In this document: positions 31,699 through 63,602 of the stretch, one piece after another
Numbering within the stretch: the first letter of the stretch is position 1
Layout of the letters: each line of letters starts with the position of its first letter
Source: Isoetes taiwanensis
Taxonomy: Eukaryota > Streptophyta > Lycopodiopsida > Isoetales > Isoetaceae
Direction: 5' to 3'
Assembly (NCBI GenBank): GCA_021234155.1
Contig: JAJEKV010000047.1
Span: forward strand, 1,042,494 to 1,106,493
Length of the DNA: 64,000 bases
Made by a program: the position numbers and the translations under genes
The notes under the pieces: generated by a model
Database searches by the model: none
What the model was told of the DNA's origin: nothing
Seen by the model: the letters and a program-made list of their open reading frames with translations, nothing else

Positions 31699-32042
31699 AT
31701 GTTAAAGCTATTAAATGTATGCCTCGTAGAATTGGGGCAGCAGCTTGGAAATGATGAAAAGGTGGAGGGAAACAAGAGCATTAGATTCGCCTCCATGCTT
31801 GATGAAATACGACTTTAAAAAGAGAAAAGGAAAACAATGGAAATTGAACTGTTGAAGCATGAGAGTGATAAGAGCTTCTTGACAAGACTTGTGTGAGTAA
31901 AGATGCAAAAATATGTGAGCAAGCTCAAAGATTATGGCGGTTTAAAAGCAAAGCGGGGAAGCCAAACCGATGTGCAAATGGCTTTGGCATCCCATTTAGA
32001 GGAGGAGAAATCAAGTTATATTGCTGACTTAGATGCTCTAAT
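31699..32042 (+). pseudogene. Coiled-coil protein pseudogene, 5' part (split by CACTA)
   Basis: One continuous phase from the ATG at 31699 encodes leucine- and charge-rich helices (for example EIELLKHESDKSFLTRLV and LASHLEEEKSSYIADLDAL). It contains in-frame stops near 31816 (TAA) and 31891 (TGA). It ends exactly at the transposon target site. Joined to the other side with one AAT copy, the phase continues for 28 more codons to a stop at 63682-63684. The family is unknown; the stops suggest it was already decayed or is itself transposon-derived. Confidence 0.55.
32040..32042. other. Left target-site duplication AAT of the CACTA element
   Basis: AAT directly precedes CACTACAAG. The matching AAT is at 63600-63602. 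CACTA elements make 3-bp duplications. Confidence 0.85.
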
Positions 32043-32051
32043 CACTACAAG
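32043..32051 (+). repeat. Left terminal inverted repeat (CACTACAAG)
   Basis: Perfect complement of 63591-63599. Confidence 0.9.
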
Positions 32052-32500
32052 GGATAGTCGCCCTTCAACGACGCCGAGATCGCCGACGAACGACGGTCGT
32101 CGCCGAAAAACGATTTTATCATCGTGCTCAACGACGCATAACGTCGTTTCGACGCCGCGTTCAACGACGTGTATCGTGGCTGACGTCGGTTTCGGATTTG
32201 CCCGCGCGGGCATGGTGCCGGTGCCAAGTCGGGCCTGCCGCGCGTCAATACACGCCACCGACGCCGCTCAACGGCGTTTCACATAGCCGACGCCGCCGCC
32301 CCCCGCGTGGAAATGGGCATTGCCAACCCGGCAACTGCGTGTCAAGACGCCGCCACCGGACGCCGCTCAACGACGCCTCCGAGCCGGACGCTTTCATGTT
32401 GGCATCCGTGGCATGGTGCTGGTGCCATGCTGGCCTGCCTGCGTGCCAGGACACGTCAGCCTCGACGTCGTTAAACGACGTTACACAGAGGAAATTTTTC
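32052..32500. repeat. Left subterminal repeat block 1
   Basis: A GC-rich stretch dense in palindromic variants: TTCAACGACGCC, AACGTCGTTTCGACG, GACGCCGCTCAACGGCGTTT and GACGTCGTTAAACGACGTT (32464-32482). Two larger related segments (about 32205-32290 and 32410-32485) share GCATGGTGCxGGTGCCA and a palindrome at the end. The density of CG sites is high. This is the normal place for CACTA transposase-binding motifs. Confidence 0.85.
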
Positions 32501-32524
32501 TTTTTTTTTTTGCCAAATAAAAAC

Positions 32525-32553
32525 TCTAACCCTAACCCTAACCCTAACCCTAA
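32525..32553. repeat. Short (CCCTAA)n telomere-like tract
   Basis: Four consecutive TAACCC units followed by CCCTAAAT. The hexamer corresponds to TTAGGG, not the common plant heptamer TTTAGGG. It is interstitial, inside the transposon. Confidence 0.85.
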
Positions 32554-32648
32554 ATCCACGTTATAAGTGGATCCATCAGTAGCTGCTGTTATTCTTATCT
32601 TTTGAGTGTTCTTCCCTATCTTGCTATAATGGTCCCAAGTAGTTGAAG

Positions 32649-32934
32649 ACCACCTTCGCTACGATATGTTCCTTCTAGCGGTAATCCTCCTCCTCCAAGG
32701 GAAGACAACTCCAAAGAACCCCCCCGCTTCTCCGACGAGAACCCTCCCTTCACCATCGTGGCAAAGATGAGTGAAAAGGAGCTTCTGATTGCACTAACAT
32801 CTTGCGTTCCATGCGGGGAACGACTGGTAGAATGGCTCACCGAGCCAAACAAAGAGAAAACGACATTAATGGTGCGTATAATGATGCAAATGGTTGCATC
32901 AAACCGCCACGCCCCTCGGGATAGACATAAGTAA
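32649..32934 (+). CDS. Small open frame, proline-rich then helical, unknown
   Basis: A stop-free frame begins near 32649 with SSGNPPPPREDNSKEPPRFS, then NPPFTIVAK and, from an ATG at 32767, MSEKELLIALTSCVPCGERL and WLTEPNKEKTTLMVRIMMQM, ending at 32934. Codon usage looks protein-like. It sits just inside the subterminal block and could be a first exon. A faintly similar arrangement (ILPRNPPPLKDEDYE then a basic helix) follows another subterminal-like block at 40345. No known domain. Confidence 0.4.
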
Positions 32935-33084
32935 TGTATAAGCTTTTTTTTTTGAATGGAAATAATAAGTTTTTTTATCTATTTGTGTTGTCGTTGTATG
33001 CTTATTTTATGAATGGGAACAATCGCTTTTTTATTTATTTGTGTTATTTGTATTGTATGTTGTTTCACATTATGTTAAACAATC

Positions 33085-33362
33085 ACGCTTGGTCGTTTAA
33101 CGACGTTATGATCATTTGACGCCGTTAAACGACGCTATGATCATCCGACGCGGGCATATGAGGGGGCATCGACGCCCAAGCCGACGCGGGCATGCCTAGG
33201 TGTCGGGCCGGCCGGCTTCATTTGACGCCGTTAAACGACGTTATGATCATCCGACATGGCATATGAGGGGTGTCGACGCCCAAGCCGACGTGGCATGCCT
33301 AGGTGTCGGGGCGCCTTTACGGCGTTAAACGACGTCATACACGACGCCGATAAACGACGTTA
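33085..33362. repeat. Left subterminal repeat block 2
   Basis: It contains two tandem units of about 106 bp (ATGATCATCCGAC at 33137 and 33243, then GCATATGAGG, GACGCCCAAGCCGACG, GGCATGCCTAGGTGTCGG). Each is tied to palindromes such as GTCGTTTAACGACG, GACGCCGTTAAACGACG and GGCGTTAAACGACGTC. It has the same motif family as the right end of the element. Confidence 0.85.
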
Positions 33363-33554
33363 AATATGGCGGGAACCCGCCGCCGGGTTATTTACCATTT
33401 CTTTGTTATTTTGACTCGCTTGTTTCGATTTTTTTTGCTCGTGGGTCTTCATAAGGTAAGATCTCTCGCTAATTTGTTAATCTTTGTGGTTTTAGAGTTA
33501 AACACCTCCAAATGCTAATAGATTAGAAGATTGAATCTTGAAAGTATGTTAAAA

Positions 33555-33750
33555 ACTTGAGGGATGCATGATCAAGGTAATCGGTCGGCTCCATCCCGAA
33601 TGGAGAAGACTAGATGTATCGGGTTTATGCACCTCGTAACGTAAGTTTCAATCTTCATAGATTACAAAAAGATTTGAAAGGTTGCGTGAATATAAGGTAT
33701 CGGGTCGACTCCATTTCAAATGGAGAGGACTAGATGTAGGGTTCAAAGAA
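33555..33750. repeat. Leader repeat module upstream of the SET gene (two copies)
   Basis: Two copies of a module reading GGTCGGCTCCATCCCGAATG + GAGAAGACTAGATGTATCGG and TCGACTCCATTTCAAATGGA + GAGGACTAGATGTAGGGTTC. The same module, in three copies, lies upstream of the kinase-like gene (54784-55130). Confidence 0.7.
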
Positions 33751-33898
33751 CCCTTCAATCAAATGCTTTCTAAATATCATAAACGTTGTATGAATCAATC
33801 TTAAGAATAAACATTTGATAAAATCATGAAAAAACATGGATATTTATATTTATTATATTATTACATGGTTTTTTATTAATATTTTTTTATTGTTTACT

Positions 33899-35270
33899 AG
33901 AAAAACAACATGGACTAACGCCAAAAGGAATTTGAACGTAAAAGTGAGACGTAAAGCTTTGAGAAAGTTACATGGCGACTTCATGCAAGAATGTTACCCC
34001 AACAATTGCCATAAATAGTCCAATTAGACCCTGGTGGACCGAAGTCTTCCTAGAGGCTTTGGTGGTGTGCATGAAATGAATGTCACGATGTATGTACCAT
34101 AAACATGTTTCAATGATTAGTTAACTTTATATCTTGATGTTACTTTTTTTTTTTGCGCTTGTACTTGACAGAGCGGTTATATTGCAATTGTTCGATGTGC
34201 AAAGGACAAATAAAACGGATGAGAAAGACCGGCCCCCGACCATGTTGACAAATATGGTGAATGCCCGAAAAATCCAAAGGTTTCCGGACGCACATGTGGG
34301 GTATTCCAACGAGGTATAATACACTAATCTTCATGAACTCGAATCAACTACTCTCATGTACTTGAATCGACGCCTTAACTTAGTTTGTTTGTATTTTGTT
34401 AGGAAGAAATTGAGAATGAAGTGAGCTCAAGCAAAGATATAGATTTTGGGGTTATGTTGTCATTGGAAGTAGATGATGTTGATACTATGAATGCGCTCAT
34501 AGAAAACCCTACAAAAAGAAAGCCATCAACTTCCTCAAAGAGTATCCCATTACGTGATAGAACTCGCCGCGGCAATGGCCGCTGCCAAGATTGGAGGGAA
34601 TGACAATGTTCATCAAAATTGGAATGTACTAGATCATGTAGAAGAAAATAATCTTCCACCTTCACTAGTCCATTTGGTCCAGCCCTTTACGATAAAGATC
34701 GTGAAGAAATTCAATGCATGGCCTAGAGGCAAGCCAATTATTTATGGGGAGCAATTTACATATTGGGGTAGGCAAAGACATGATTAAAAAATAGTCGGGT
34801 CCCCGGTGCTGGGCCTGGGATTATATATTATGACCTAATACAAAAGTCAAAGATGGTACGACCGTTCCTTTAATGCCATATGTAGGTCCCTGAATATAAC
34901 TTCTATTACACTTGGCATAAATTGAGTAAGCATCGCTGGCGCATGCTCATCTATGGCCTAAATTCAAATGCACTAACAATATCCAAGCCCTGACTACGCA
35001 AGCTTCACATATATTGATGGTCGCCCTCGCTTGCATGGAAACCTTGTCGCTTTTATTAATAGCTCTATCAAGAATCTTGAAGCTACCAATTGTGAATTTG
35101 TCGAGGCAAACAAAGACCAAGAAGATTTTTTTAGGCGTAAAATTGACGGGAGATATATCATGGTTTATGCTATAAAAACTTTGTGTATTGGTGATGAATT
35201 GTTCATTGAATATGAATATGGTAGACCAATACCGAGGTCCTTTGATGATGTACTCAAATTACTCATATAA
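33899..35270 (+). CDS. SET-domain-like protein gene (multi-exon, partly decayed)
   Basis: The last exon region, 34995-35270, encodes YASFTYIDGRPRLHGNLVAF, INSSIKNLEATNCEFVEAN, then YIMVYAIKTLCIGDELFIEY and EYGRP. This matches the C-terminal half of SET lysine-methyltransferase domains: an N..AFIN-type cofactor-binding strand, NC, the A.K.I..G.EL...Y motif and the pseudoknot. Upstream exons are supported by splice signals: TTGACAG|AG near 34171, AACGAG|GTATAA near 34316 and TTTGTTAG|GAAG at 34402. The 34403-34787 part needs one frame change near 34560. The N-flanking SET half is only weakly readable at 34800-34990. If functional, it would methylate lysine on histones or other proteins, but the usual NHxxxPN signature appears altered to FINSS, so activity is doubtful. 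Its position beside the transposase suggests cargo. Confidence 0.55.
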
Positions 35271-35288
35271 TTTTCGCCTAATGCACCT

Positions 35289-35356
35289 TTTTTTTCTTCT
35301 TCTTCGAATTCTTCTTCTTCTTCTTCTTCTTTTTCAATTCTTCAATTCTTCTTCTC
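35289..35356. repeat. (TTC)n microsatellite-like tract
   Basis: TTCTTC runs with interspersed AATTC lie just after the stop of the SET-like frame. Confidence 0.85.
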
Positions 35357-35599
35357 TTGAATGAGATTGCACATATTGAAGATAAATGTGTATTATATCT
35401 TTAATATATGCTTTGATTATGACATAAAATTTTATATTTCGCTCGCTATTAAATGCTTAAAATTTAACAAACACGGCTCTCAATGCATGTATCAATCATG
35501 CATATATTTCGCTTTAATCGACCCGACGCGGTAGGCAAGTGGATATGAGACCACATCCAAGCTGCATCAATTGGCGACATCAAACGCCATTATGGATAG

Positions 35600-38500
35600 C
35601 AGTAATTAGAATACATTGAGCAAGATGGTACAAACATGGGCACAACGATAATGAAGAGTACAATGATGAAGATGAACAGAATATGATGATGAAGATGACG
35701 ACAATGCCCCTATGGATCTAACTTCATGGAAGTTGAGGAACCCATAGCCCACATGTTAGATGCATTTGGCCCAATCTTCGATAAATCCACCTAGATGACG
35801 ATATAAATACTCCTAACGATGGTCATGAAGATCACGCTTTTATTGGAGGAGGCGATAAAGCATTATATCCAGTGCAAGCATATCTAGATTGACTACATCT
35901 TTATTGATATTAAACCTTCAAGCCAAATTCAAATGGAGCAATGTTGTTACGGCTTTGTTAGAGTAAGTACAATTGCAATCACTTGACTTATTGAATTTGT
36001 AGTTGAATGTATACGTAAAGGTCCTGTTTTATACTGTGTTATTGCAAGAGAAAATACTCCCACAAGGGAACACTATGCCCAAAAGTCGACCGAATAAAAA
36101 AAATATATTGGCAGCCATCTTGGTTTAGGCTACCATAAGATTCACGCTTGTCCAAATGATTGCATGGTATATTATCCTAATGACATCTACAAGAACACGT
36201 AAACATGCCCTAAAATGTGGTGCCTCTAGGTACAACACAGGATGCCAAGGGAAAGACCGGCCCCGATGAAGGTGGTTCGCCACTTTCCATTGATCCCTCG
36301 CGATAAGGCTATTGTTTCGATGTGAATCTCTAGCTTCGCCATGGGTTGGTGTGCCGCTAACGCGTTGAGTGACAATGTAATTCGCGCGGGTTAGTGACCG
36401 CAAGCAATGGAAGCATATTGATGAAACATGGCCTAATTTGGAAGAGAGCCACCTAAATCTCGATTAGGGTTGGCAACGGATGGTGTTAATCCTTATGGAC
36501 GCCAATCGCCGCTGCGGGTCAACTTGGCCAAGAGTGTTGATCAACTATAATTTACCACCGTGGTTACTCATGAAGACTAGCCATTTAATGGTAGTACTAT
36601 TAGTTCCAGGACCGGAAGAAGCCGGAAAGTCTAGATCCAGATCCGAAAAATAGTTATTGATGAGCTTTTGACATTGTGGAGTGAAGGTATTGAAGTTTAC
36701 GATGTCTCAAGAGAACTTCGCGGCCGAACTAAGATTTACCTTGAGAGCAATCTTAATGTGGACAACGAGCGATTGGCCCGGGTTTGTATGAACTCTCCTC
36801 GACTTCAAGTGTCCGGATATGCGATGTCACTTGTGTGGGTTTGAACAGCTTGAACTCTCACGGTCAACAGCATTGCACAAAAATGTCTATGCAAACTTCA
36901 AGAGATATCCGCCAATGGAAAATCGACTTCGATACGTAGGTCCAAGAGAAAACATTGCAATCAAGAGCCTCCCAAAAGGTTGACAATGAGAGATTGGGGT
37001 AACATGTGGGATGCCGCCAAGGAAATAAGGTTAAGGGAATGAAGTGGAAAGCATCCTTCTTCCTTCTACCCTATTGATGTAATTGAAGATCCATCATCTT
37101 CTTGATCCCATGCACATCTTTAAAAACGTTTTGCGCCTATTTGGAGGCATGTCACCGGACGAAGGACACAGATGCAAAGACGAAGATCTACAAGAAGTCG
37201 GATCAAAATCTAAAGCATGGTTAAATGTCGAAGAAGGAATAAGGCCACAAGTGGATTGATCGCGTGCCTAGAAAAATGTATGAAACCCGCTCGAGAAGCT
37301 TTATCAAGGCAATAAAGACTGACAGATATATGCATTCGCTATGTAATTGTTTCTCTAACTAGGGGAGTTAACCGGGTTGAAATCTCATGATTGGCATAAG
37401 ATGTTGCAGTTTGTTATGCCTATTGTTCTCGAGGGGTCGCCTCGCCACGGGTCCACTACGCGGCAATATGTCTCCCTATCGAAGTTTTCCAGTGTTCGTG
37501 ACGGATTTAGAAAACACTCGATGCTGAACTCTCACTTAACTTTTTTCTTTCTTAAATGATATTTAGATGGATTACAAGGAAGGAGATACCAAACAAATGA
37601 AATTATGGACATGCTAACTAAGGTCGTTGAGGCATGTTGTATGCTAGAGAAAGAATTCCCAACAAGTTTTTCGGACATACAAACTCACTTACTAGTGCAT
37701 TTAGTGGACGGTAGAGCTTGCGTGCACAACAAATCCTAGATGGATGTTTTTATAGAACGCTTCGAAGGTCCTCAAGGACTTCAGACGTCGAAGGCAAGGC
37801 CGAGGGTTGCATGGCCGAGGGTTGGTTAGCACGCAGAGTCATTATTCTATGTCACCGAAGTTCTTGGCCGATCTACACCCCAATGCTCCACGATTATGGA
37901 CCGATGAAGACACTCCAACTATAATTGAGAAGTTCCCAAGGAAGACCACGTAAGAAATTGTTCACACTAGAAGAACAGCAAAAGTCAATAAGTTTTCATC
38001 TACAACTCCACTCCCATGGAGAAATGGATAAAAAAAATACGAGGAAGAAAAAATAAAGAGAGATGAGGAGAGAAGACGCTTATCGACAAAAGAATCGCGA
38101 AAACAACCACTTCCGCATCATCTAGGGTCCCGCCAAGTGAGATAAACAATAAATGGTCGCCGAACAACTAGAGATGGCAAGGCAACGTATTAACATGTTT
38201 CTAGCGAAGAATTTGCATATGCTAAAGGCGTGTCACTATTTGTAAGTGCAACTTAATAGCATATTATAATTCATGAGTTTCGCTCGCTATTTTGAACATT
38301 TGTTCCTTTACTTTGTAGTATAATTCATATGCATCAATATGGTCTTCGGGTGCTCACTTTCGACGACAAAGTGTGGATCATGGCAAACGACTTATGATTG
38401 TGGTATATCAGCAAAGTTTAGTACGCTTTGCCGACCGGTAGTGCGCACTCCAAACCCAATCGAGGCAATGTTGGAATGGATTGGTACTATAAAGACTATC

Positions 38501-39930: not shown

Positions 39931-39934
39931 AAAT

Positions 39935-40020: not shown

Positions 40021-40039
40021 TAAATGTCACCGCCCGGCT

Positions 40040-41070: not shown

Positions 41071-41073
41071 GCT

Positions 41074-44000
41074 CGGTTGCCTCGCGAACGGGCTGCTCCC
41101 GGGACGGTTCTAATGCTAACCTTTTGACCTAAACCTTCTCCCAAAAATTCCAAAATTGGGTCGCGGTGCCGGAGATGAATTAGGATCCAACTGGCAAAAA
41201 TCAGAATTTATTTTCGTGCAATGCATTAATTACGAATTTATGAGTGTGTTGCCACCGCAAAAGCGCCCCGACTTCTAATTGCCACATCGGGAGGAGGACA
41301 GGTCCAAACTCCATCCGCCGGTTCCCCTTGCTATGCTTCTACCGCAGCGGCTTCGACCACGCCTTCCTGCGCAATGGATCAGACTCGCCCCCAAAACGTA
41401 AACCCTTCTAGAGCCCGCAACCCACGTGGTTTACGCTTTGAGGCCCTCTCCTTGTTAGAGGTAGGGACCTTGCGACGGTCTTGAAGTGGAGTTGGGGTGT
41501 TGACGCCGAGCGGACCCTAAAATCCTCCCCGAGGGCTGCTTGCCCCAAATTTCCCTCTCCCCAAGGCCCCGGGACAATTTGGCAACCTCCCTCTCCCGGA
41601 ACCCACGATTTGGCTCTCCCAATTGACCTTCGAACGCTGACATTGCCCTGGGGGGACCAAGTTCCGCGGAGTTAGTGTGACACAAAGACTGGGAGCCGCC
41701 CCCAAAACGTAAACCCTTCTAGAGCCCGGCAACCCAAAAGTGGTTTACGCTTTGGAGGCCCTCTCCTTGTTAGATCTCGGCCGACTTTGCGCCATGTCTT
41801 GAAGTGGAGTTGGGGTGTTGACGGGCCGTGAGAGTGGACACTAAAATCCCTCCGAACTTTCGCCCCTTGCCGGAATTTCCCTCTCCCCAAGGCCCCCGGG
41901 AAGGACAGCAACCTCCCTCACCGTGCAATGCATTTTGCGATTTGGCTCGCCAATGGACTCATAACGCCAACATTGCCACGGGACCAAGTTCCGCCGGGCC
42001 ATAAGACCAGGACTCGCCCCAAAAAACGAAACCCTTCTAGAGCCCCGCAACCCACGTGGTTTACGCCGAGGCCCTCCTTGTCGAGTTAGGGCCGGACCTG
42101 ACCTTGGTGTCTTCAAGTGGAGTTGGGGTGTTGACGCCAGCGGACCCTAAAAATCCCTCCTAAGTCGCTTGCCCCAAATTTCCTCTCCCCAAGGCCCCTT
42201 GGGGACCGGACGGACCGACCTCCCCTCTGGGGATCGGGCGATCTGGCTCGCCAATGACTTAACGCCGACATTGCCCCGGGGACCAAGTTCCGCGGGGCGA
42301 AGACCACCCGAACTCCAAGAAGCCAAAGTAGCTCACTTCCATCACACTCCTAGTCAATTGGCCTAGGATGTGGATGCGAGGATACCGTCGTGGAGGGCGG
42401 AGTGTTTTTTTTTTGCAAAACCGACCGCGGTAACTTGCTCCCTAGGGTAATTTCGCCATTCAGGACGATTTGGTGGTCGATTTGCCATTCGAGCCTCCTG
42501 CGTGCCCGAACGACAAAACAAGTGCGGTTTCTACAAGGCCGACATCGGGACGCCCCGCGGGTTTGACAAGTTCTCCCGGACCGATCCGGAATCTTTTGGG
42601 CCTTCCCAAGAGGGGCCCATGAACGGAGGATCCAACGGCCGGATAGGGGAACCGGCCCGGAGGGTGGTCATTAGCGCAGCCCCCGGGAGCGCCGCCAGAA
42701 GGGCTGCCTCGGGAACTTTTTGGATCCCTCCCCGGGTCCGGACTCTCCCCTCTTGTGAGGGATCCCCGCAAGGTCCTGGCCTCGCTTTGACTTGGGGAAG
42801 GGTGCCACGGCGGTTCCCCGCAACGGCTCCCTCTAACCGCTCTAATGCTAACCCTTTGACCTAGACCTTCTCCGAAAATTCAAAATTGGGCCGTAGGCCG
42901 GAGATGAATTAGGGATCCAGCCGCAAAAAATCGAATTTATTTTTGTGCAATGCATTAATTGCTAATTTACTAATGTCTTGCCACTGCAAAGCCTCCTCGA
43001 CTTCTACTTGCCACATCGGGATGAGGACAGGCCCAAACTCGCCTCCGCCAGTTCCCTTGCTCCATATTCTCGGCTGCCGCTTCGGCCAGTCCCAAGTGCA
43101 ACAGACCAGACTTCGCCCCCAAAACGCAAACCCTTCTAGAGCCCGGCAACCCACGGGGGGTTTACGTTTCGAGGCCCTCTCCTTGTCGATTCGGTAGGGA
43201 CCTTGCGCCGCGGTCTTGAAGTGGAGTTGGGGTGTTGGACGCCAGAGCGCTGACCCTAAAATCCTCCGGAAGTCGCTTGCCCCAAATTTCTCTCCCAAGG
43301 CCCGGGGCCTCGACGGGCGACCTCCCTCTCCGGGAATCGCTGACTGGCTCGCCAATGGACTTAACGCCGACATTGCCCCGGGGACCAAGTTCCGCGGGCC
43401 GAAGACCACCCAGAACTCCAAGAAGCGCCAAAGTAGCTCACTTCCATCACACTCCTAGTCAATTGGCCTAGGATGTGGATGCTGGATACCGCTCGTGGAG
43501 GGCGGAGTGTTTCTTTCTTTTGCAAAACCCACCGCGGTAACTTGCTCCTAGGTAATTTCGCCATTCCTGACGATTTGGTGGTCGATTTGCCATTCCCCCG
43601 AGCCTCCCGGCCCGAACGACAAAACAAAGGCGGTTTCTACAAGGCCGACATCGAGGACACCCCCGGGTTTGACAAGTTCTCCGACCGATCTGGAATCTTT
43701 TGGGCCTTCCCCAAGAGGGGCCCATGAATGGAGGATCCAATCGGCCGGATAGGGGAACCGGGCCCGGAGGGTGGTCATTAGCGACAGCCCCGGGGGAGCG
43801 CCGCCAGAAGGGCTGCCTCGGGAACTTTTTGGATCCCTCCCGGGTCCGGACTCTCCCCTCTTGTGAGGGATCCCCGCAAGGTCCCGGCCTCGCTTTGACT
43901 TGGGAAGGGTGCCAGCTCGCTGTTCCGCGAAACGGGCTCCCCCGACCGCTCTAATGCTAACCCTTTGACCTAGACCTTTTCTCCGAAAATTCAAAATTGG

Positions 44001-50000: not shown

Positions 50001-52172
50001 GGCGACCTCCCCTCACCGGAATCGCGATTTGGCTCTGCCAATGGACTCAGAACGACGACATTGCCCTGGGGACCAAGTTCCGTGGCCAGAAGACCACCCG
50101 AACTCCAAGAAGCGTCAAAGTAGCTCACTTCCATCACACTCCTAGTCAATTGGCCTAGGATGTGGATGCGGGATAATGTCGTGGAGGCGTGGATGTTTTT
50201 TCTTTTGCAAAACCGACCAGGTGTAACTTGCTCCCTAGGGTAATTTCGCCATTCCGGACGATTTGGTGGTGGTCGATTTGCCATTAGGAGCCTCCCGGTG
50301 TCCCGAACGACAAAAACAAAGGCGGTTTCTACAAGGCCGACATCGGGGCCGCTGGTTTGACAAGTTCTCCCAGGACCGATCTGGAATCTTTTGGGCCTTC
50401 CCGAAGAGGGGCCCATGAACGGAGGATCCAACGGTCGGATAGGGGAACCGCCCCGAGGGTGGTCATTAGCTGCAGCCAGGGGGAGCGCCAGAAGGGCTGC
50501 CTCGGGGAACTTTTTGGATCCCGCCTCCCGGGTCGGGACTCTCCCTCTTGTGAGGGATCCCCGCAAGGTCCTGGCCTCGTTTGACTTGGGGAAGGGTGCC
50601 GGCTCGGTTCCCCGCAATCGGGCTCCCCGACCGTTCTAATGCTAACCCTTTGACATAGACCTTCTCAAAAATTCGAAAATTGGGCCGTGTGCTAGAGATG
50701 AATTAGGGATCCGGCAAAAAAAATCGGAATTTATTTTTCGTGCAATGCATTAATTGCGAATTTACGAATGTCTTGCCATCGCAAAAGCCCCCGACTTCTA
50801 CTTGCCACATCCGGAGGGGGACAGGCCCAAACTCCGCTCCGTCGGTTCCCTTGCTCGAGTATTCTCGGCTGGCTGCTTCGGCCGGTCCCAAGTGCAGCAG
50901 ACCGGGACTCGGCCCCCAAAACGCAAACCCTTCTAGAGCACGGCAACCCACGGGGTTTACGTTTGGAGGCCCTCTCCTTTGTCGGTCGGTAGGGACCTTC
51001 ATACGTGTCTTGAAGTGGAGTTGGGGTGTTGGCCTTGAGCACGGACCCTAAAATCCCCCTAAGCTGCTTGCCCCAAATTTCCTCTCCCCAAGGCCACGGG
51101 GACCCGGACGGGCGACCTCCCCTCTCCCGAATCGCGACCGGCTCGCCAATGGACTCGAGAACGTCGACATTGCCCTGGGGACCAAGTTCGTGGCGAGAAG
51201 ACCACCCGAACTCCAAGAAGCCAAAGTAGCTCACTTCCATCACACTCACGGGTCAATTGGCCTAGGATGTGGATGCGGATACTTGTCGTGGAGGGCGTGG
51301 AGTGTTTCTTTCTTTTGCAAAACCGACCGTGTAACTTGCTCCCTAGGGTAATTTCGCCATTCCGGACGATTTGGCGGGGTCGATTTGCCGTTCGAGCCTC
51401 CTCGGTGCTAACGACAAAGCAAGGCGGTTTCTACAAGGCCGACATCGGGATTCCGCCGGTTTGACAAGTTCTCCGGACCGATCTGGAATCTTTTGGGCCT
51501 TCCGAAGAGGGGCACATGAATGGAGGATCCAACGGCCGGATAGGGGAACCGGGCCGGGAGGGTGGTCATTAGCGCTGCGGCGGGGCGCCGCCGAAGAAGG
51601 GCCTCGGGAACTTTTTGGATCCCGGCCTCACGGGGTCCGGACTCTCCCTCTTGTGAGGGATCCCCGCAAGGTCCCTGGCCTCGTTTGACTTGGGAAGGGT
51701 GCCAGCTCGGTTGCCCCGCGGGCTCCCCGACCATTCTAATGCTAACCCTTTGACCTAGACCTTCTCCGAAAATTCAAAATTGGGCCGTGGTGGCCGGAGA
51801 TGAATTAGGGATCCAGCCGCAAAACTTCGAATTTATTTTTCGTGCAATGCATTAATTGCGAATTTACGAATGTCTTGCCATCGCAAAAAAGCCCCAGACT
51901 TCTACTTTTGCCACATCGAGGAGGAGGATGGGCCCAAACTCGGCTCCGTCGGTTCCACTTGCTCCGTGATTTCGGCTGGCCGCTTCCGGCCAGTCCCAAG
52001 TGCAACAGACCGGGACTCGGCCCCAAAACGCAAACCCTTCTAGAGCCCGGCAACCCACGGGGTTTACGTTTGAGGAGGCCCTCTCCTTGTCGATTCGTAG
52101 GGACCTTGGCGCCGCGGTCTTGAAGTGGAGTTGGGGTGTTGACGCCAGAGCGCGGACCCTAAAATCCCTCCT
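41074..52172. repeat. Tandem array of about ten 1.1-kb GC-rich units
   Basis: The anchor TAATGCTAAC(C) occurs at 41111, 42843, 43952, 45051, 46173, 47290, 48431, 49521, 50637 and 51737. Full units are therefore 1109, 1099, 1122, 1117, 1141, 1090, 1116 and 1100 bp, with a longer first unit (1732 bp) and a truncated last one. Highly conserved blocks, such as AAGTAGCTCACTTCCATCAC + ACTCCTAGTCAATTGGCC and AACTTGCTCCCTAGGGTAAT, alternate with short variable GC-rich sites. Many frames of 60-230 codons occur on both strands but shift between copies, so I do not call genes. The whole array lies inside the CACTA element. Confidence 0.95.
41393..42327. repeat. Triplicated block of about 315 bp at the array's left edge
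   Basis: The marker CCCTTCTAGAGCCC appears at 41403, 41714 and 42032 (spacings 311 and 318). In the first two passes the sequence returns to the block start after ACCAAGTTCCGCGG instead of entering the AAGTAGCTCAC part of the unit. This explains the oversized first unit. Confidence 0.85.
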
Positions 52173-52370: not shown

Positions 52371-52444
52371 CGTGCATTAATTATGAATTAAGTGCCAACA
52401 AATATTGGTAATGAGTATACTTGTTCATTCTGTTATAAACTTGC

Positions 52445-55130: not shown

Positions 55131-55426
55131 TTATTAATATATCAATAAATAGAAATCTTTCTGGAGGATTGGACAAAGGCGGGGTTTTGAAAAAAATTGC
55201 ATTATTGATTTTCGGGTTTCTAGTTAAGAATGTTGTTTTTTAAAAATGTTAGGGATGTCAAAGAAACACTGATGTGGAGTGGTTAAGAGCAAGAAAAAAT
55301 TTCAATAGTTGGTTTTAAAAAAAAAATTAAAAGGGAAACTAACTCTTAAGAAAGTAGGTAAAGATTCATAATGAAGGTTTGAAAAAAGTCACAAAGCAAG
55401 ATTAATGAATCTAAATTGGTTTGTAG

Positions 55427-55800
55427 GTATGGCCCCGAGTGTGAAGACACAAATGATTAGTGAGATTAGACGCGTGGTCATAAATGAGATATGTGCTAAC
55501 GAAAGTCCCGACCGGGAGATGCAAACTGGTCAACGTGTCGACCATTTTGTCAGACATGTGAAAAGGAAGTGCCAATTTGAGTTAGCACAAAAAATGGCCA
55601 GTCAAGAAGAAATGTTGACTTCTCTCCTTGACACACATGTAAAGCCAATGATTGGAAACCCATGGATGAGCCCGAAGACATGTTTGAAGCATTCAAAGGC
55701 GACTTAAAAGTCCCAATGCCGAGGCTCGTGTCAAGGAATGGGTAGCTTCATGGAATTGCTCAAAGAAGCGGCGTGCAAGTGGATCACAAGAACATCATTG
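55427..55800 (+). CDS. Exon(s) N-terminal to the kinase-like domain, unknown
   Basis: After an acceptor-like GGTTTGTAG, a frame reads MAPSVKTQMISEIRRVVINE, DREMQTGQRVDHFVRHVKRK and ELAQKMASQEEMLTSLLDTH. After a frame change it continues as PEDMFEAFKGDLKVPMPRLV. It is probably the N-terminal part of the gene whose kinase fold follows at 56040. No domain recognised. Confidence 0.4.
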
Positions 55801-56514
55801 CGGATCTCAATGCGTCGGTTGGAGGTAATTAAAAATGCTTTGCATCGTGGGGAAGCTCTAGTGGAACAAGGCCTAGCAAGGCCCACTTTTCTTTGGAGAA
55901 TCACATGAACACATCAATCTTTGTTGATCCCATACCCGTAGAGGCCGTGGATGTGATCGCCTTATTGAGGAGAAACCAACACATCGCATTATCAAATCAA
56001 GATCAACGGAACACAACACTTCCAAGATGATGAGCTATACTGGTGGATGGGTTTTCAAGGGCAAAGATAGAGGCAGAGACGTATGAGATGGCTCAAAGAT
56101 ACATACGCTTCAAGAGCCCCAGATCCCTGCTTTGGCTACATCCATTGGACTTGCATATGAAGTTGCTAGCTCTAGTGGGGATACCATAGGGCCAATGGTG
56201 ATTCTACCTTTCATGAATGGAGAGACACTTGCACACTTGTTTGACTATTTACCTAATAACTTGTCACGTTTTAGAAGATGGTCAAATGCAATTGCTAGAG
56301 CGCCAAGAAGAACCCGACAAACACATAGGGTTGAACTTAGGAGCAAAATGCGAGTTGTATATCGGTATGTTCGAGAGATAGCTCTTGCCCTAGCAGAAGG
56401 TGTCGTTGAGATCCACAAAGGCCACTTCACTCACACAAAGCTTAATTGCAAGAGAGTCAAATTACATTTTGATGATGAGTACCAAAATGTGTGGGTGGCC
56501 ATTGGTGATTGGGA

Positions 56515-56650
56515 CAATGCCCGGGGGCTTCACCCCTTTATATAGAGCATATGGCATGTGCGTGCAAGGGGTCGACTGAAACCCCCACAGTATCACGACT
56601 TTTTTGCAAAGTGAAACCCCCAACCATACGTACATATGAATTTTAATTTT
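56515..56650 (+). repeat. Dispersed repeat copy (shared with 18100-18235)
   Basis: It carries CCCGGGGGCTTCACC, GTGCGTGCAAGGGGTC, AAACCCCC, ACGACTTTTTTG and CATACGTAC in the same order as the minus-strand copy at 18 kb. It starts at the point where kinase coding sense is lost. Confidence 0.55.
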
Positions 56651-57214
56651 TGGCCCCTTATCCGTACATGTACTCCAGTCCCAACTAGCAATCCATATAC
56701 CCTTTCCCATACATATACTGGACACCATAAGAAAAGTCCTAGCCCTTGTAGCACATATGGTAAGACATCATTTATGGAATATTTTTTTAGTCATTACAAG
56801 AGCTAGCTAAGCTAGTTTGTTGTATGGGTTTGGAGTTTGATTATTCAAATACAAGCCCATATTAAATGCAAGGTTAAAAGGGGGATTAACATCATAACCT
56901 ATGGCAAATAAAGACTATACAAAGTGTGTCAATCCCGGTGTCAATGCAATGTCCATTGAATGATTGATCTAAGTTGATTAGGGAGTTGAATTATCAATTG
57001 CCCTACAAAGTTTATAAGGCAAGATCAACAAGATCAAATAGCTTCACAATTCTTAGCCAATGTTGGCCAATGGTTTATAATGTTGAAATGTTGAAATGGT
57101 TCATGATTGCATGGCTCCTAGACTTCCTAAGGTCATTATTATAGCTTCCTATGGTTCATTATTATAAGGTAGGATTATTCATAAAATCACATCATTGCAT
57201 GGTTCATATGATTA

Positions 57215-58040
57215 CTAAATTACATGATTGCATGGCCAGAAATTGCATAATAGCAACTTATAACTTTTATTATAAGTTCTTATAACATCATCAGTTGAAT
57301 TGATATGCACAGAAGTGAGGCTTTCAAAATTCTCATATGTGTATATTGTGGGACTACGACTTGTATGTAGTAGGCTGCTTGCCTCTGCAGTTTTACTTGC
57401 CAAAACCATCCTAGTCCGCATAAGATTAATGTCATAAAACTGTAAAGACCCATCCTCAGATCCGAAATGAGTCAGTAAAAATATTGATTCAATCAAGAAT
57501 GGCAAGAAATTAAAACACGTGAAGAGGACAAATATAGCACCATACCTTATCCGGAGCTTTGTTCGCCCAACATAGCTAAGTACACTCGTGGAGTGCCACG
57601 CACATAGCCTACTATCTTCTCATCTTCATGGTTAACCACAACCACCTCTCCTTGAAGTGTCCCAAAGACCATGAGACACTTGTCCTTTGGGATGGTAAAC
57701 CCAATAACCTTCTAAGTAAATATAGACCACAGTTTTGATGATCCTTTCTTTGCTTAAGACCGCTCTGGCGATATTTACGTAAGTGCCTTAATAGCATCGG
57801 TAATGCATTTTGCAATAGCATCAACAATAGATATCCTTGGTAGCTTGTCTTTACTAGGTTACGTTGAAGATAGATTATGAAGATCACTAAGCATTGGCGG
57901 TTCGGCAAAGACTCGTGCCAACTATAGCCTTGGCACTATTATCTTCATCTCGAATCTGCTTCTCGAGACAATCTTGGCCAAGTGAGTGGTCGCTTGAGTC
58001 GCATGTTGGTTGCCTGATTCTGCATCAACATAGAACTCCT
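57215..58040 (-). pseudogene. Captured host exons, WD40-like protein
   Basis: Three minus-strand exon-like blocks are visible. The first (about 58035-57779) has IRDEDNSAKAIVGT and, after a frame change, RISIVDAIAKCITDAIKALT, ending at a GTAAAT donor. The second starts after TATATTTACTTAG at 57711 with KVIGFTIPKDKCLMVFGTLQ and GEVVVVNHEDEKIVGYVRGT. The third (about 57480-57260) has HFGSEDGSLQFYDINLMRTR. The strand-turn pattern (G.LQGEVVV, SEDGSLQFYD) suggests beta-propeller repeats. No specific gene is identified. Confidence 0.45.
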
Positions 58041-58849
58041 TTTAATGCTGAAGTACATAATGGTGTTCGAAAAAAGCATTGGATAATTATGAGATGTTCA
58101 GTTTAATGGTAGAAACACAACAAACTAGACATCTCTTTCAACACGCATAAGGTTTTCAAAATGTAAGTTAACTTATGTAAAAGCTCAATATGACATGCAG
58201 AGTGTCCTTCAATTTAGTGTAGGCAAACTTGTTTGGAAGATAGAAGACAACACGTAAATAATTTTGAGACCAAGTAAACTGCAAGTTGCTCTTGGAATAG
58301 CAAGCACTTATCTCTCCCTGCTGGAAAGACGTACCCAGAGTAGGCAAAGGCCATCGTTAATGCTGAAAATTTGTGATTGGAGATAAAATCAATGCTATCA
58401 TCAATTCAAGGGAGTTTACAGAAAGGCAAACAACCAAACATTTGGACAGTAAAAAGGTAAAGTTCTGTAAGAAAAGCAACAATATGCCAGAGCACCTTCA
58501 AAGATTTGCAACATTTGACTGTTCTACCACTATCAAGCCACTACATTATCTAGAAGTGCATGGATACTCAAACTCCAACTTTTTCCTTTATCTCAAGATG
58601 AAAAAACAATTGTGCCAAGCAGAGTAAGGAGACTAGATGTTTCTTTTGGATAAGAGAACAAAGCAATTCTTTATTGTAAAGGAGATATTTACGCAAATTA
58701 CATAAAAAAATTGGCGCATGTCCATGTACTGCTAAAACATCATTTTCCCATTCATGAAAAATCAGATAGAAGACTACCTTCAGAAGGTCCCTTGTCAGAA
58801 GGCAATATCAAGTACCGTGTTGTGTCAGACATATTTTGGTGAAGAATGG

Positions 58850-59088
58850 TTAGTCAAGTCTCCTCCAAATGTCTAATTCTTGTGACACCTTCATCCTTGC
58901 CAAATAATCCTTCAACTTCTCAATACTCTGATGCAACAACGCAGAACTCCAACAATCAGTTATTTGCAGATTTTTGCCTTATAAACCATTTATGATTTCC
59001 TTACCTTCATTTTTCCATTTTTATCAGGTGTAGCTGGCTCCCCATGGCCCTCAAGTTCAGCTTCACGTTGCTCTGTTGCGTAAATGCT
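58850..59088 (-). pseudogene. Two captured host exons, unrecognised protein end
   Basis: Exon 59088-59005 (28 codons, after TTTATGCAG, before GTAAGG) encodes SIYATEQREAELEGHGEPAT and PDKNGKMK. Exon 58927-58850 (after GTTGCATCAG) encodes SIEKLKDYLARMKVSQELDI and WRRLD, then a stop. Both are in phase 0 and join cleanly. This looks like the C-terminus of a host protein with a helical tail. Confidence 0.5.
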
Positions 59089-59246
59089 CTGCATAAACAG
59101 TATTTAGCCAGCACAATATTAACTGCCTCAACTTGGCTAAGATCTGGATTGGTCTAGCATCCAGGTCTGGCATCCAGAAACTACTTTAAGAAAAAGGGGA
59201 CCTGACTAAATACTACGATTAAACACCGAAGGATATTAAGACTTAC

Positions 59247-59319
59247 TTTCTCTTCTTCCTCCATGATTTCTTCTTTCCACCTGTTGCGCACCTTTTATGG
59301 GTTGAATCTCGTGAAATAC
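59247..59319 (-). pseudogene. RPS8: Captured exon of ribosomal protein eS8 (RPS8)
   Basis: The 73-nt block lies between TTTCTAACAG and GTAAGT and encodes [18 protein letters not shown] then SWRKKRK. This is the highly conserved N-terminus of eukaryotic small-subunit ribosomal protein eS8, directly after its initiator Met. Two residues differ from the usual sequence (Thr after DS, Cys after KR). No further eS8 exon is present nearby, so it is an isolated captured fragment. Confidence 0.85.
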
Positions 59320-60889
59320 CTGTTAGAAAGATGCAAAATAAACGCTTTTATGAGATTAGAATCAAAGGGACACAGTGCATAGCTAATTGAGAGACTACTG
59401 ATAAAAACGGGAGATGAAGGAAATACCTTTCTGAAGCAAGCAACTCTAGATATTTTAGGGTATATCTAAGAAGAGTAATGACAAAGAAATGCAAGATCAA
59501 GCCAAGAAACAACAATGTAGGCAAAAATATGCACCAAAGCAAAAATGCAAAAAATTAATTAGAACTAAAAGCGAATCGGTTCAATAAAATAAAGACCTGC
59601 CAGATCTTTGCTTCAGGCCTCAAGATCTTTAACCTGCATAACAGAACACAAAGATAAGGTAAGATTCTGCAACAAAAGACAATCTAAAAGCCCTAGAACC
59701 AAACTTTCATTTCAAAAGATCCTTCTCCAAGCACCTCCCAAGACTCGACAAACAGCTCCAAGATTCCAGAATTGGACCTTCTGCCTTTCTTCAAGAGCTC
59801 TTCCATAAATGAAAAGATTTGATGTGGCCGCTAACTTCATTCTTGAATCTGAAATGTAGCTGCAACCGACAAAGATGCAAGCGCCAAGATGTGGATCAAA
59901 TGGCACATAAAAAACACACCCCTACAAGGATCCATGCGGGGCGCCATTTCCGCCCATCACCCCTACCGCTTTGAGTAATGCTTTGCTAGAACTTGGTTTT
60001 CCAGACAACCAACCCATCGCCTACGGACCCCCTTGCCAATTAAAAAACCCCTACCAGATCCACGATGTTGGTCTATACGGGTTCTTAATGGTGAAGTCCC
60101 CGGGGGACAATGCAATTCATTTTTACGCCAAAGAGCGTCGTCCCTTGTTGAAGTGTCGGTACTTACTTTCGGATGGACAAGCAAAATATCCATGGTTAGA
60201 GGAAACTGTGTTTGAGAAATCAAAGGATGATGATGTGGTATGGGGACCACGAAATTCATGATGTCTATGCATTGGGATATATTTATGAGATGCTTTCGGA
60301 TTTTCGTGCAAGCTATGCGACTAATGGAGTGGTTTAATAATAACAACAATGCCCAATGGATTAATCCAACCCATATGTACCAACGACGTCTTGACAAGTT
60401 GGAGGAGCAAAAAATAAGAATGATGTGCCTACGTGAAGATGTATTCTCATCACGACCCAAAGCTTCTGAAGTTGTTGAAGCCTTACAAAGTGTTGGAATA
60501 TCTTCTACCATGGTTGTGAGACAAAGACGACACATGAAGTGCATGGATGCCTTGGAGATGTCAAAATTGTTGTTGTCACAACTCAAAGAATGAATACAAT
60601 ATTGTATATCTTGCCATGTTTAAGAGTATTAAATTTTTTAATTGTCTAATAACCAAATATATAGACACTTTTAATTATTCAAATCCCAATGTTTTGTAAT
60701 GAACTTCCCATGTTGCTAACATTTACTATGTTATTCATCGCACTCCATATAAATAACTTGCAGTTTTTTTGCACATGTCCAAAGAACCATGGGATGCGCA
60801 CGATGGCATATCTATTGTTTAGCAACTTTACTTTCGTGTGGCTTGGTAGCCTTAATGACAGCCCTAAACCCACAAAAGGCATTTAAGAG

Positions 60890-62573
60890 GCGGTTGGTCG
60901 ATTCGGGTTTAGTTTCGCCACCACCGCCACCTCCACCATTGTGCGGATTTGGTATGGATTTTTTCTAGGATAAAATGTAAGTTAACCATTTATTTTAACG
61001 TTCTAATGTTTTTAAATGTAGCGTGTAAATGCGGTTCGTCCTTCTTTTCCTATGCATAATGTTCGCCGTCGTGGTTGGTTACAGGCGGATCTTCTTCTCA
61101 TGAAAGGCGAAGAGTCGGAGGAAAAGGACCTCGATTCGAGGAGCCGAATTTAAGAACGGGAACTCGAGATATCAACGAGGCGATAACCCCGAAGATAGGT
61201 GGAATGCCTTGCAACTTGGGATGTCGCCCGAGAAATGGATATTGCGCTACGGCCATTTGTTGAACAAAGTAGGCGGAGGTCGGGCCTGTGACCCTCCACG
61301 TCATAGCTCATACACTCCTTTCGTAATTCAATCTTGGGCCCTTCCGGGGCGAGGGGATCCAACCCCCCGACGACAGAGCACCGACCGCCGTTCACGTTGA
61401 GTGGGACGCAATTCCTCTTCAAGCTCTATTAAAGATCGTGCACCACCCGCACCACCTCCCGAAGGCATGTCTTTGAATATGAGTGAGTTCATCTTGAATT
61501 ATGCCCTTTTTTTGTTCAACGAACACATATTCATATGTTAGTCAGTATGTTGAGTGTAGTAACAAGAAGGTGCGCTACCACAAAGACTGCAGATGGCGAC
61601 AATTTTTGGAGGATGGCTAATAGTGTCACAAATAGCGTTTGCCATAACGCCCACAAGGGTGAATGGAACTTCGGGGAGCCTATGATGAGGAAAAAGAGAG
61701 GATCAAGGAGCTTTTAGAAGCCGAGAATATCCCGAGCTCAAGTCGGGAGAGATCTCATGGAGGGAGGTTTGTTCAAAGCGAGTGGTAAACATGTTAAAGC
61801 CACCAGGTATTAGGCTCTTTTCGTTCTTCATTATAACCTCATTGTACTCATATTTTATTTATATTTTGCAGAGGTAATCGGAAGAAGGTGAAAAGCTCTT
61901 GCCAAAGCTACTGAGGAGTCTCGATAGAGGAAGTGGCCTGACCTATATCCGGGTTGACTAATGAGGCATTTCAAGTACATCATCTCTCCCATGAGTCGTA
62001 TAATTAGATGACGCCATGTGGACTAAGTCCTTGTATTGCATTGTAGTGGGAGAGTCATTATAATTAGATGACGCCATGTGGACTAAGTCCTTGTATTGCA
62101 TTGTAGTGTTTGAAGGCCAACATATTATCAAAGAAATGGGAAGCTAGAACAAAGCATTATTTGGGCCGAGGTACGAGGTGAAGCAAGTGGCGACCATAGT
62201 GCCAATAAGACTGGTCCGGGCGGTTATGGCTACGGATAAGCTATTTGTAAGTATAAATTTGGTTTATAATGTAGGTTCTCGAGTTGAACACTAACATTAG
62301 TTTTGGTGCTCATTCTCAATAGAAGTCATTTGCTGGTCGCCCGGCTGCTAAAGATGAACGCGAAAGGGCCTTCAAAAAAAAGGTATCATGCGGCCATCGA
62401 TGTCTGGCCATTGCTGAGCGTGAACGGGGGGACGTGTGTATCATTCATTAGATAATTATTTGTGACTACAATGAACTAATTGTTGCGATACAATATAATG
62501 CAGGTAAATGAAGACGAACCCGCCAATGAAGAAGAAGAAGAAGAAGAAGAAGAAGAAGAAGAGAGCAACAACT
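60890..62573 (+). CDS. Unknown spliced gene next to the right end (TNPA-like position)
   Basis: Coding-like pieces include RRLVDSGLVSPPPPPPPPLC (about 60892), NPEDRWNALQLGMSPEKWIL (about 61185), YDEEKERIKELLEAENIPSS (about 61680), SFAGRPAAKDERERAFKKK (about 62327) and a final exon after ATGCAG at 62504: VNEDEPANEEEEE... ending ESNN and a stop at 62573. Splice-like AG/GT borders separate several pieces. In CACTA elements a second gene encodes a DNA-binding protein for the subterminal repeats (TNPA/TNP1). The order after the enzyme and the acidic/basic helices would fit, but I see no diagnostic motif. Frame shifts suggest decay. Confidence 0.4.
61994..62113. repeat. 60-bp tandem duplication
   Basis: TATAATTAGATGACGCCATG + TGGACTAAGTCC..TTGTAGTG occurs at about 62000 and 62060 with no differences over some 48 bp. 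Confidence 0.9.
62529..62562 (+). repeat. (GAA)n tract encoding poly-Glu
   Basis: About eleven consecutive GAA codons lie in the last exon of the unknown gene ending at 62573. Confidence 0.9.
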
Positions 62574-62639
62574 AAAGACTCAATATATTTTGTAATGTGC
62601 AAATTACATTGTGAAATATATTAAATTTTTTATGCTTTG

Positions 62640-63015
62640 TTCTTATTATTTGTGATTTTTTTTTGTTATGTTAATTTTATGCTCGATTCTATTTTTTTAG
62701 CTTCTTAGATTTATTAAACATTTAATTACATATTAAATAATAATGCTTATCTACCATGATACTGAATACTAATATAATTTAATCAATATTTGTTTCTATT
62801 TTTTGAATTTTTGAATTTTTTAATTTTTATTCTCGATTTATTTTGTTCATATTTAATATTTATTAATACTATTAATATTATTGTTAATATTAATATTATT
62901 TAATAATATTAATAAATATTACTAAATATTTATTTATATTAAATATTTGTTAATATTGAATATGAATATTAATTGTCCTTTAAATAATATTGAATAATAT
63001 TAAATAAATATTTTT
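62640..63015. repeat. AT-rich spacer of AATATT-type repeats
   Basis: Dense TTAATATT/AATATTAA words from about 62770 to 63010; no coding sequence. Confidence 0.8.
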
Positions 63016-63029
63016 TTTTTCAAAATTCA

Positions 63030-63590
63030 TTAATCGTCGTTTAACGACGTTGAGGGCGTGGTGCCGCGTGTATCGCCACCGCGCATCATTAAATCGCCCG
63101 CCGCCAGCGGCCCATACGTCGGAACGTCGTTGAACGGCGTGGTGGCGTGGTCGCCACGCCAATGAGAATGGATGATACCGTCGGCAAGAACGCCGTTGAA
63201 CGGCGTTTTACACGTAAGGCCACACGTCTATGTTACGCGGTGGCAGCGCCGGCCAGACGCCGCGACCGCAGCGACATGATGGCGTGTATTAATCGTCGTT
63301 GAGCGGCGTTGCGAATCATCGCCACGCCCGACCGGTGGCGGCGCTGATCACTCGGGCGGCGGTCGCGTGGTCGACCCGACCGCGGTATCGCTTAACGGCG
63401 TTGAACGGCGCCAGTGTCGCCGCTAAAGACGCCAGCGGTGCGACGGCGATATAGCGACGCGATAACGTCGTTTATCGGCGCTTAAACGTCGAAAATAGGC
63501 GTCGTTTATCGGCGTTTTGAGCGTCGATAAACGGCGATGCAAACGGCGCCCGGGCGCCGTAATAGACGCGATAAAGAACAGGGCTTTAAT
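63030..63590. repeat. Right subterminal repeat region
   Basis: It is GC-rich, with at least eight palindrome variants: CGTCGTTTAACGACG (63033), ACGTCGTTGAACGGCGT (63124), ACGCCGTTGAACGGCGT (63190), CGTCGTTGAGCGGCGTT (63295), TTAACGGCGTTGAACGGCG (63392), AACGTCGTTTATCGGCG (63463), GGCGTCGTTTATCGGCG (63498) and GATAAACGGCG (63524). It has the same family as the left end, with more CGGCG half-sites. Confidence 0.88.
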
Positions 63591-63599
63591 CTTGTAGTG
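63591..63599 (-). repeat. Right terminal inverted repeat (CTTGTAGTG)
   Basis: Perfect complement of 32043-32051. Confidence 0.9.
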
Positions 63600-63602
63600 A
63601 AT
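63600..63602. other. Right target-site duplication AAT
   Basis: Matches 32040-32042. Confidence 0.85.

Follow-up and report, generated by a model that had tools for sequence, protein, structure and literature searches.

In the 64,000-nucleotide stretch of Isoetes taiwanensis DNA analysed here (the window), positions 32043-63599 are one CACTA (En/Spm) element of 31,557 bp. It belongs to a family whose copies share one layout, namely left end, TAD (transposase-associated) domain, SET domain, TNP2 transposase domain, DUF4218, 1.1-kb tandem array, kinase-like ORF, and right end. Taken as a whole, we consider it quite likely that the window holds a single CACTA element with this family layout and an inherited array, which would move by cut and paste and whose SET protein would act with the transposase. 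The coordinates below are those of the window, and all features are on the + strand except the target site duplications and the nested insertion, to which no strand was assigned.

The terminal inverted repeats, CACTACAAG on the left (32043-32051) and CTTGTAGTG on the right (63591-63599), begin with CACTA as in this superfamily, and each was found only once in the window. The element was inserted inside another repeat and duplicated AAT exactly on both sides (32040-32042 and 63600-63602). In addition, both ends lie in GC-rich subterminal regions (32043-33340 and 63022-63599). The left one is kept in other copies, and the motif AACGACG/CGTCGTT is clustered at both ends, as the subterminal repeats of CACTA elements are. 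The same motif is also clustered near 53 kb. The ends, the AAT duplication, and the shared subterminal repeats had been described from the sequence alone, and all of them hold.

Searches of the 1.66-Gb genome with the element ends gave more than 300 candidate sites for the family. A scored right end was found downstream on the same strand for 9 of the 40 scored left-end hits (the window included) and never in the reverse order, and the paired ends were 462 bp to 38.7 kb apart. Similarly, coordinate tests placed the left end before SET in 12 of 40 cases and the kinase-like ORF before the right end in 9 of 83, without any reversed case. Exact 3-bp duplications flanked 10 of the 10 elements examined, the window copy and nine others with the same ends that are collinear where sequence is retained; the chance of such a duplication is about 0.018 per element, assuming 40% GC. 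Furthermore, in all 40 scored matches to empty sites (327 candidates), the joined flanks matched straight over the junction. This search was used instead of the continuous ORF that spans the empty site, because 1567 of 5000 random joins gave an ORF as long or longer, and the ORF was dropped as evidence. It could be supposed that the two ends come from different elements and that the interval is a composite or a misassembly, as there is a nested element in the interval and some copies carry further insertions. However, the fixed order of paired ends, the matching duplications, and the empty sites make this extremely improbable. Thus, the single-unit origin, which the sequence-only reading had proposed, is confirmed by the collinear copies and the empty sites.

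The family ranges in size from 717 bp to 39.0 kb, and the 31.6-kb window element is the second in size among the 10 copies measured. The earlier statement that it is far larger than ordinary CACTA elements is reasonable against the plant elements so far as the sources describe them, but not against its own family, and 3.6 kb of its length is a nested insertion.

The transposase domain TNP2 (Transposase_21), which is typical of CACTA elements, was mapped to 36340-37076. The Pfam match at about 36393-36935 has an E value of 2.4e-18 and a second match lies in another frame, so the domain is a frame-broken remnant, as had been suggested. In a copy of a second subfamily (L062), TNP2 was matched at E 7e-57 and contains stops. 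Genome-wide, the strongest TNP2 match (E 1.1e-73) contains no stops, has an open frame of 513 aa, and follows a stop-free SET of the second subfamily (C1045) at a distance of 947 bp. The TAD-like (Transpos_assoc) exon, placed by mapping and Pfam at 34161-34328, is weak in the subfamily of the window copy. For instance, it scored 14.5 bits in the C908 copy of this first subfamily against a cut-off of 27.7, and in L062 the score was 21.8 bits when the sequence was translated directly and 28.2 bits, just over the cut-off, when typed letters were used. An acidic linker exon in the SET-TNP2 interval (35530-35774) was mapped and has a counterpart in L062. A fragment of DUF4218, which usually accompanies TNP2, lies at 37590-37709 (E 2e-4); its 21.6 bits do not reach the cut-off of 27. 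Since the transposase frames are broken, the window copy is defective and probably makes no working transposase.

The SET ORF, about 272 codons long, was mapped between the TAD and TNP2 domains (34403-35245). In the window, its Pfam match at about 34986-35213 scored 20.2 bits, just below the cut-off of 22.4, and the frame is broken; the C1065 copy also fell below (18.2 bits). However, its relatives P0001 (28.2 bits), P0002 (24.4 bits), and L062 (24.7 bits) are above the cut-off, so that the SET-domain-like gene noted earlier is supported through the family rather than by the window copy. P0001 and P0002 were found in datasets outside the I. taiwanensis genome. The second SET subfamily is 46-50% identical to the first and keeps the same TAD-SET-TNP2 order, which L062 shows with a SET domain above the cut-off. 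In both subfamilies together, TNP2 lies 947-1455 bp downstream in at least 25 of the 155 listed SET loci, with none reversed. As a point against, most of the 150 listed TNP2 loci have no scored SET upstream (at least 25 have one). Of 1945 SET candidates, 142 were scored, and these include at least 28 nearly full-length SET ORFs without stops. The stop-free stretch covers 250 or more aligned codons in at least 15 places that are 76-86% identical and in at least 13 others at 46-49% identity. Because SET has the same position in two subfamilies and is stop-free in at least 28 ORFs, it looks like a maintained transposon component rather than a captured fragment.

The pooled pN/pS of SET by DNA alignment was 0.57 (5 copies), but the codon-position test on the copies compared was not significant (p = 0.49), and thus pN/pS values are not taken as proof of selection. 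Selection on SET is suggested by the intact frames and not by these copies. The usual active-site motif of SET domains is NHxxxPN. At this position, the aligned SET proteins read N-S-S, which makes methyltransferase activity uncertain. The AlphaFold model of the SET protein (pLDDT 31) was useless for a fold search.

How SET relates to the transposase could be explained in more than one way. The transposase of this CACTA clade could be one spliced TAD-SET-TNP2 protein, with a built-in histone methyltransferase that, during the transposition cycle, would mark chromatin at the element's copies or at its target sites. We consider this rather unlikely. No long protein containing the family SET was found at E ≤ 0.01 among 460 candidates, which leaves the fused transposase without database support, and in the first subfamily the phases of TAD and SET do not agree in the splicing as read. 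The chances are about even that SET, rather than being a transposase exon, is a small gene of its own within the region of the transposase gene. The same database result favours such a gene, and P0001 and P0002 are stand-alone ORFs of 272 aa with the same end point as the genomic ORF. Nevertheless, TAD and Transposase_21 normally share one ORF in the CACTA elements described in PMC8978399, so SET would have to be a same-strand intronic gene. In L062, moreover, conserved SET residues stand before the first Met, the TAD and SET phases match, and the downstream linker exon has no in-frame Met.

Ordinary gene capture, by which SET and the kinase-like ORF would be host gene fragments carried passively, is improbable. 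Gene capture by CACTA elements is documented in PMC8978399, both frames are broken in the window, and the codon-position test gave no significant signal. However, the position of SET is constant over many copies, the stop-free ORFs fall into two divergent subfamilies, L062 of the second subfamily keeps the order, and homologues exist outside this genome. The earlier label "cargo" undersells SET, which is enclosed by the transposase gene region and whose frame is kept free of stops in two subfamilies; in addition, the kinase-like ORF recurs in other copies, and the array is inherited within the family.

This array, claimed earlier as 11 kb long, extends from about 41083 to 52171 in GC-rich units of about 1,109 bp, and its edges are common to other copies. 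It is made up of three incomplete pieces, a unit that is almost whole, eight whole units, and a final one truncated at about position 267. A listed element part was found on the expected side at 21 of 33 array loci and never on the wrong side or strand; the other 12 had no listed element part nearby. The array is ancestral to the family and largely element-bound, inherited rather than acquired by the window copy. The Rfam search of the window gave no match at the gathering threshold, and the longest frame in the doubled consensus of the unit is 169 aa; we treated the array as presumably non-coding. An origin from rDNA spacer was considered and found no support.

The kinase-like ORF was mapped in two parts (55429-56520 and 60105-60590); its relative P0003 has 520 codons and shares 80% identity with the family query. 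It is split by a 3.6-kb MULE-like repeat (56521-60104), whose 14-bp ends CCGGGG[G/A]CTTCACC are alike in 13 of 14 bases and which has a 9-10-bp duplication within GGGACAATGC, in agreement with the terminal inverted repeats and 9-11-bp duplications of Mutator-like elements. The repeat recurs in the genome, where its copies start at the same base (of 633 candidates, 40 were scored), and it is missing from the six CACTA copies in which both flanks of the insertion point are retained. It is thus a later insertion and not original CACTA content. Pfam gave no match in the six frames of 54.0-63.6 kb, and thus no MuDR transposase of the repeat's own.

The proposal of a kinase fold was not upheld, because neither Pfam nor PDB sequence searches returned a kinase. 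The label comes from motifs, without statistical support, and the protein presumably lacks the usual catalytic residue. Its model (AlphaFold pLDDT 38) was useless for a fold search, and its pooled pN/pS by DNA alignment was 0.46 (7 copies; codon-position test p = 0.22, not significant). Downstream, a conserved 3′ region with short ORFs (60590-63020) is kept in copies and has no Pfam match above the cut-off; it is possibly a DNA-binding (TNPA-type) gene. The Pfam hits to Herpes_UL1, Baculo_helicase, Pcf11_C, CLASP_N, and Golgin were all below the cut-off and were ignored.

We propose that the element would move by cut and paste, a process in which the CACTA ends would be handled by the TNP2 transposase and the subterminal repeats bound by a second, DNA-binding protein. 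The window copy could move only if intact copies supplied the transposase. Less certainly, SET may be made as part of the transposase or together with it, and might modify histones on the element's own chromatin and so oppose silencing. The kinase-like protein would be a conserved accessory protein, and the array a passively inherited satellite whose length could be altered by unequal exchange. An intact SET in many copies may help this CACTA family to escape silencing, and transposons with their own chromatin enzymes show mobile DNA resisting silencing by the host. A SET ORF retained within the transposase region of this CACTA clade, in both of its diverged subfamilies and in a plant without seeds, would lend itself to testing whether a transposon writes histone marks of its own, and would add one lineage to the SET-bearing transposon groups found in the literature. 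Meanwhile, the inherited array is a clear case of a satellite spreading inside a transposon.

Our literature search found no report of a CACTA element with SET, and "SET domain" is absent from the main text of PMC8978399. A CACTA element carrying SET would be new as far as this search reaches, whereas SET genes are already known from transposons of other kinds, and so are CACTA elements with satellite arrays. Described plant CACTA elements, such as soybean Tgmt* (20.5 kb) and Chenopodium Jozin, likewise have CACTA ends, 3-bp duplications, and subterminal repeats (PMC2613891) and TAD, Transposase_21, and DUF4218 (PMC8978399), of which TAD and DUF4218 score below the cut-off in the subfamily of the window copy. 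The extra domains described for them in the latter source are Transposase_24 and Peptidase_C48, and the Isoetes element differs in its SET between TAD and TNP2, its kinase-like ORF, and its 1.1-kb array. HarbingerS and Phytophthora MuDR are described in PMC12730594 as DNA transposons with a SET histone methyltransferase gene; they are likened to the Isoetes element by description only and belong to the Harbinger and MuDR superfamilies, not to CACTA. The fungal EnSpm with a TET/JBP dioxygenase also combines a CACTA-type transposon with an epigenetic enzyme (PMC12730594), but this enzyme acts on DNA methylation, in fungi. The En/Spm families of Chondrus crispus (16-20 kb, 4-5 ORFs; PMC6431247) are enlarged CACTA elements with extra ORFs too, in a red alga; the likeness drawn here is one of size and ORF number. 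Finally, a 16.5-kb CACTA element of C. quinoa also holds a satellite array, a captured one of 5.55 kb (PMC8978399), but the array unit there is 171 bp, against about 1,109 bp in Isoetes, where the array edges are common to several copies.

The CACTA transposon of the window begins with CACTACAAG at 32043 and finishes with CTTGTAGTG ending at 63599; each sequence occurs once in the window, and AAT adjoins both. The assembly containing the window (1,658,258,908 bases, 1110 contigs) was searched, and we found at least 40 left-end matches (best 40 of 363 candidates scored) and at least 40 right-end places (best 40 of 315 candidates scored). Nine more regions were fetched and aligned to the window element, eight by the matching of both ends and one, on contig C1027, by a left end beside the tandem array. 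The lengths of the ten elements were 717, 6,212, 12,856, 14,080, 14,603, 19,056, 20,957, 23,688, 31,557 (window) and 38,965 bp, and in six of the ten all nine bases were perfect at either end. The sequence-only reading had inferred that the interval is a single unit. This is borne out: the two ends are paired in collinear copies, and the 3-bp duplication is exact in 10 of 10 elements. In addition, the 717-bp element (L059, on C1089) is a MITE-like derivative, an internal-deletion copy in which both ends remain. Although CCTTACAAG stands at its left end, the AGG duplication is exact. The C1029 element (L047-L050, 39.0 kb) carries about 14.6 kb extra between SET and TNP2. In the window copy, about five telomere-like CCCTAA-type repeats lie at 32522-32553, just inside the left subterminal region.

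Empty sites were found as well. A 300-base query joining both flanks with one AAT ran unbroken across the junction in all 40 scored places at 94-96% identity (best 40 of 327 candidates). The window element thus inserted into one copy of a different repeat family, unoccupied copies of which are common. An open frame spanning this junction is nothing unusual in itself. The target, at about 31895-32042 and 63603-63750 on the two sides of the element, is thus a repeat itself (327 candidates). Upstream of the element, an ORF at 30517-30924 (minus strand) presumably resembles a LINE reverse transcriptase, and one at 22186-22782 (minus strand) presumably resembles a SAUR auxin-responsive protein, which would fit a land plant. 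A 281-aa ORF at 14056-14901 (minus strand) contains a GHTHEDVDALF stretch.

Within the element, Pfam matches were found for TNP2 (36393-36935, in broken frames) and, below the cut-off, for SET (34986-35213) and DUF4218 (37590-37709), and there was no single-frame Pfam match at 54.0-63.6 kb of the window. The TNP2 remnant noticed earlier is real; "broken" should be read with care: the assembly was built from Nanopore and Illumina reads (PMC8566536), and some frame breaks in the copies may be Nanopore indels in repeats. By inference from the family, the TNP2 transposase would cut and paste the element at its CACTA ends, and the window copy probably depends on help supplied in trans.

The read-through SET was used as a query against a database of 5.8 billion sequences (286 candidates), and two proteins passed E <= 0.001. 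These relatives, P0001 and P0002, have 272 aa each, are 81 and 80% identical to the query and both exceed the Pfam SET cut-off. When P0001 was searched against the genome of the window (best 142 of 1945 candidates scored), at least 15 places that are 76-86% identical to P0001 showed no stop across 250 or more aligned codons, and so did at least 13 more that are 46-49% identical. The latter range points to a second SET-CACTA subfamily with stop-free ORFs, its SET being 46-50% identical. For instance, the second-subfamily locus L062 shows, in succession on one strand, a TAD-like domain, a stop-free 273-aa SET ORF (24.7 bits vs the Pfam cut-off of 22.4) and TNP2 (E 7e-57, four stops inside the domain). 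At other second-subfamily loci the TNP2 domain is free of stops: 947 bp downstream of one stop-free SET lies the top TNP2 match of the genome (C1045:11894982, E 1.1e-73, open frame of 513 aa). At no fewer than 25 of 155 SET loci, a same-strand TNP2 locus follows 947-1455 bp downstream; among the matches listed, the order was reversed in none, and one case had SET and TNP2 on opposite strands within 4 kb. At least nine of these 25 pairs belong to the second subfamily (24 SET loci, assigned by eye). Furthermore, the left end precedes SET in at least 12 of 40 cases, with none reversed among the matches listed. Judged from these sequences, SET looks like a component of the transposon family.

In described CACTA elements, TAD, Transposase_21, DUF4218 and DUF4216 occupy one ORF (PMC8978399). 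Thus, a SET ORF between TAD and TNP2 must be either an exon or an intronic gene. At L062, a short intron-like gap separates TAD and SET, whose reading phases are compatible; some conserved SET residues lie before any methionine, and there is no in-frame methionine in the linker exon after SET, all of which suggest that SET may be an exon of the transposase gene. In both subfamilies, inspection by eye also gives frame-keeping joins from SET to the linker, at differing sites. However, the TAD-SET phases of the first subfamily, as read here, do not fit, P0001 and P0002 terminate at the stop of the genomic ORF, and no protein of 530-1685 aa containing the window-family SET was found (460 candidates, none at E <= 0.01). 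SET may instead be a separate intronic gene in the transposase region.

As to the kinase-fold gene proposed in the sequence-only reading, its ORF recurs with open frames in relatives (P0003, 520 aa; P0004, 306 aa). On the alignment, the order of its motifs resembles that of a protein kinase in which lysine takes the place of the HRD aspartate, but kinase identity found no support in Pfam, in PDB sequence searches or in a structure model. In the genome of the window (best 83 of 2141 candidates scored), at least four matches cover 484 codons or more without a stop, one of these at just 53% identity, and at least nine of the 83 precede a right end, with none reversed among the matches listed. In the fetched copies, pooled pN/pS came to 0.57 over 10 pairs for SET and to 0.46 over 21 pairs for the kinase-like ORF, but codon-position tests were significant for neither. 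The case for function comes from stop-free frames persisting across 46-53% protein identity, not from pN/pS.

Much of the length of the window element is accounted for by the tandem array and a nested insertion. The array, as had been claimed, is present at 41083-52171 with a unit of about 1,109 bp, and its edges are common to several copies: identical partial pieces mark the left edge in the window, C1065, C1029 and C1078, and the right edge (unit cut at about 267) is common to the window, C1029 and C1042. Since mean unit identities within copies (0.836-0.944) overlap those between copies (0.805-0.899), the unit sequences indicate that the array is older than the dispersal of these copies. 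It is lacking in C908 and C1063, two of the fetched copies. Of the 33 array loci that were scored across the genome, at least 21 have an element part within 60 kb on the expected side; among the matches listed, none has one on the wrong side or strand, and 12 have no element part. The array is probably carried along passively. Meanwhile, the MULE-like insertion (56521-60104; 9-10-bp duplication, MULE-like ends) splits the kinase-like ORF of the window copy. All six copies in which retained sequence flanks the site on either side (C1042, C1029, C908, C1078, C1063 and C1027) lack it; in C1103 and C1065 this place is affected by larger deletions. The first 200 bases of the insertion recur, starting at base 1, in all 40 scored places, window included, at 94-100% identity (best 40 of 633 candidates).

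The word CACTA is absent from the main text of the genome papers of Isoetes taiwanensis (PMC8566536) and I. sinensis (PMC10541799), and no report of a plant CACTA with SET was found among the papers listed in literature searches on CACTA/EnSpm, SET domains and Isoetes or lycophytes. Large CACTA elements (PMC2613891, PMC6431247) and satellite arrays linked to CACTA (PMC8978399, PMC7320549) are already known, as is SET in other transposons; what appears new is SET in a plant CACTA. HarbingerS and MuDR transposons carry SET, as does the window family, whereas fungal EnSpm elements carry TET (PMC12730594). By analogy to these transposons, SET would modify chromatin at the element and oppose silencing, which we tentatively regard as the likeliest of its roles, at somewhat less than even odds.
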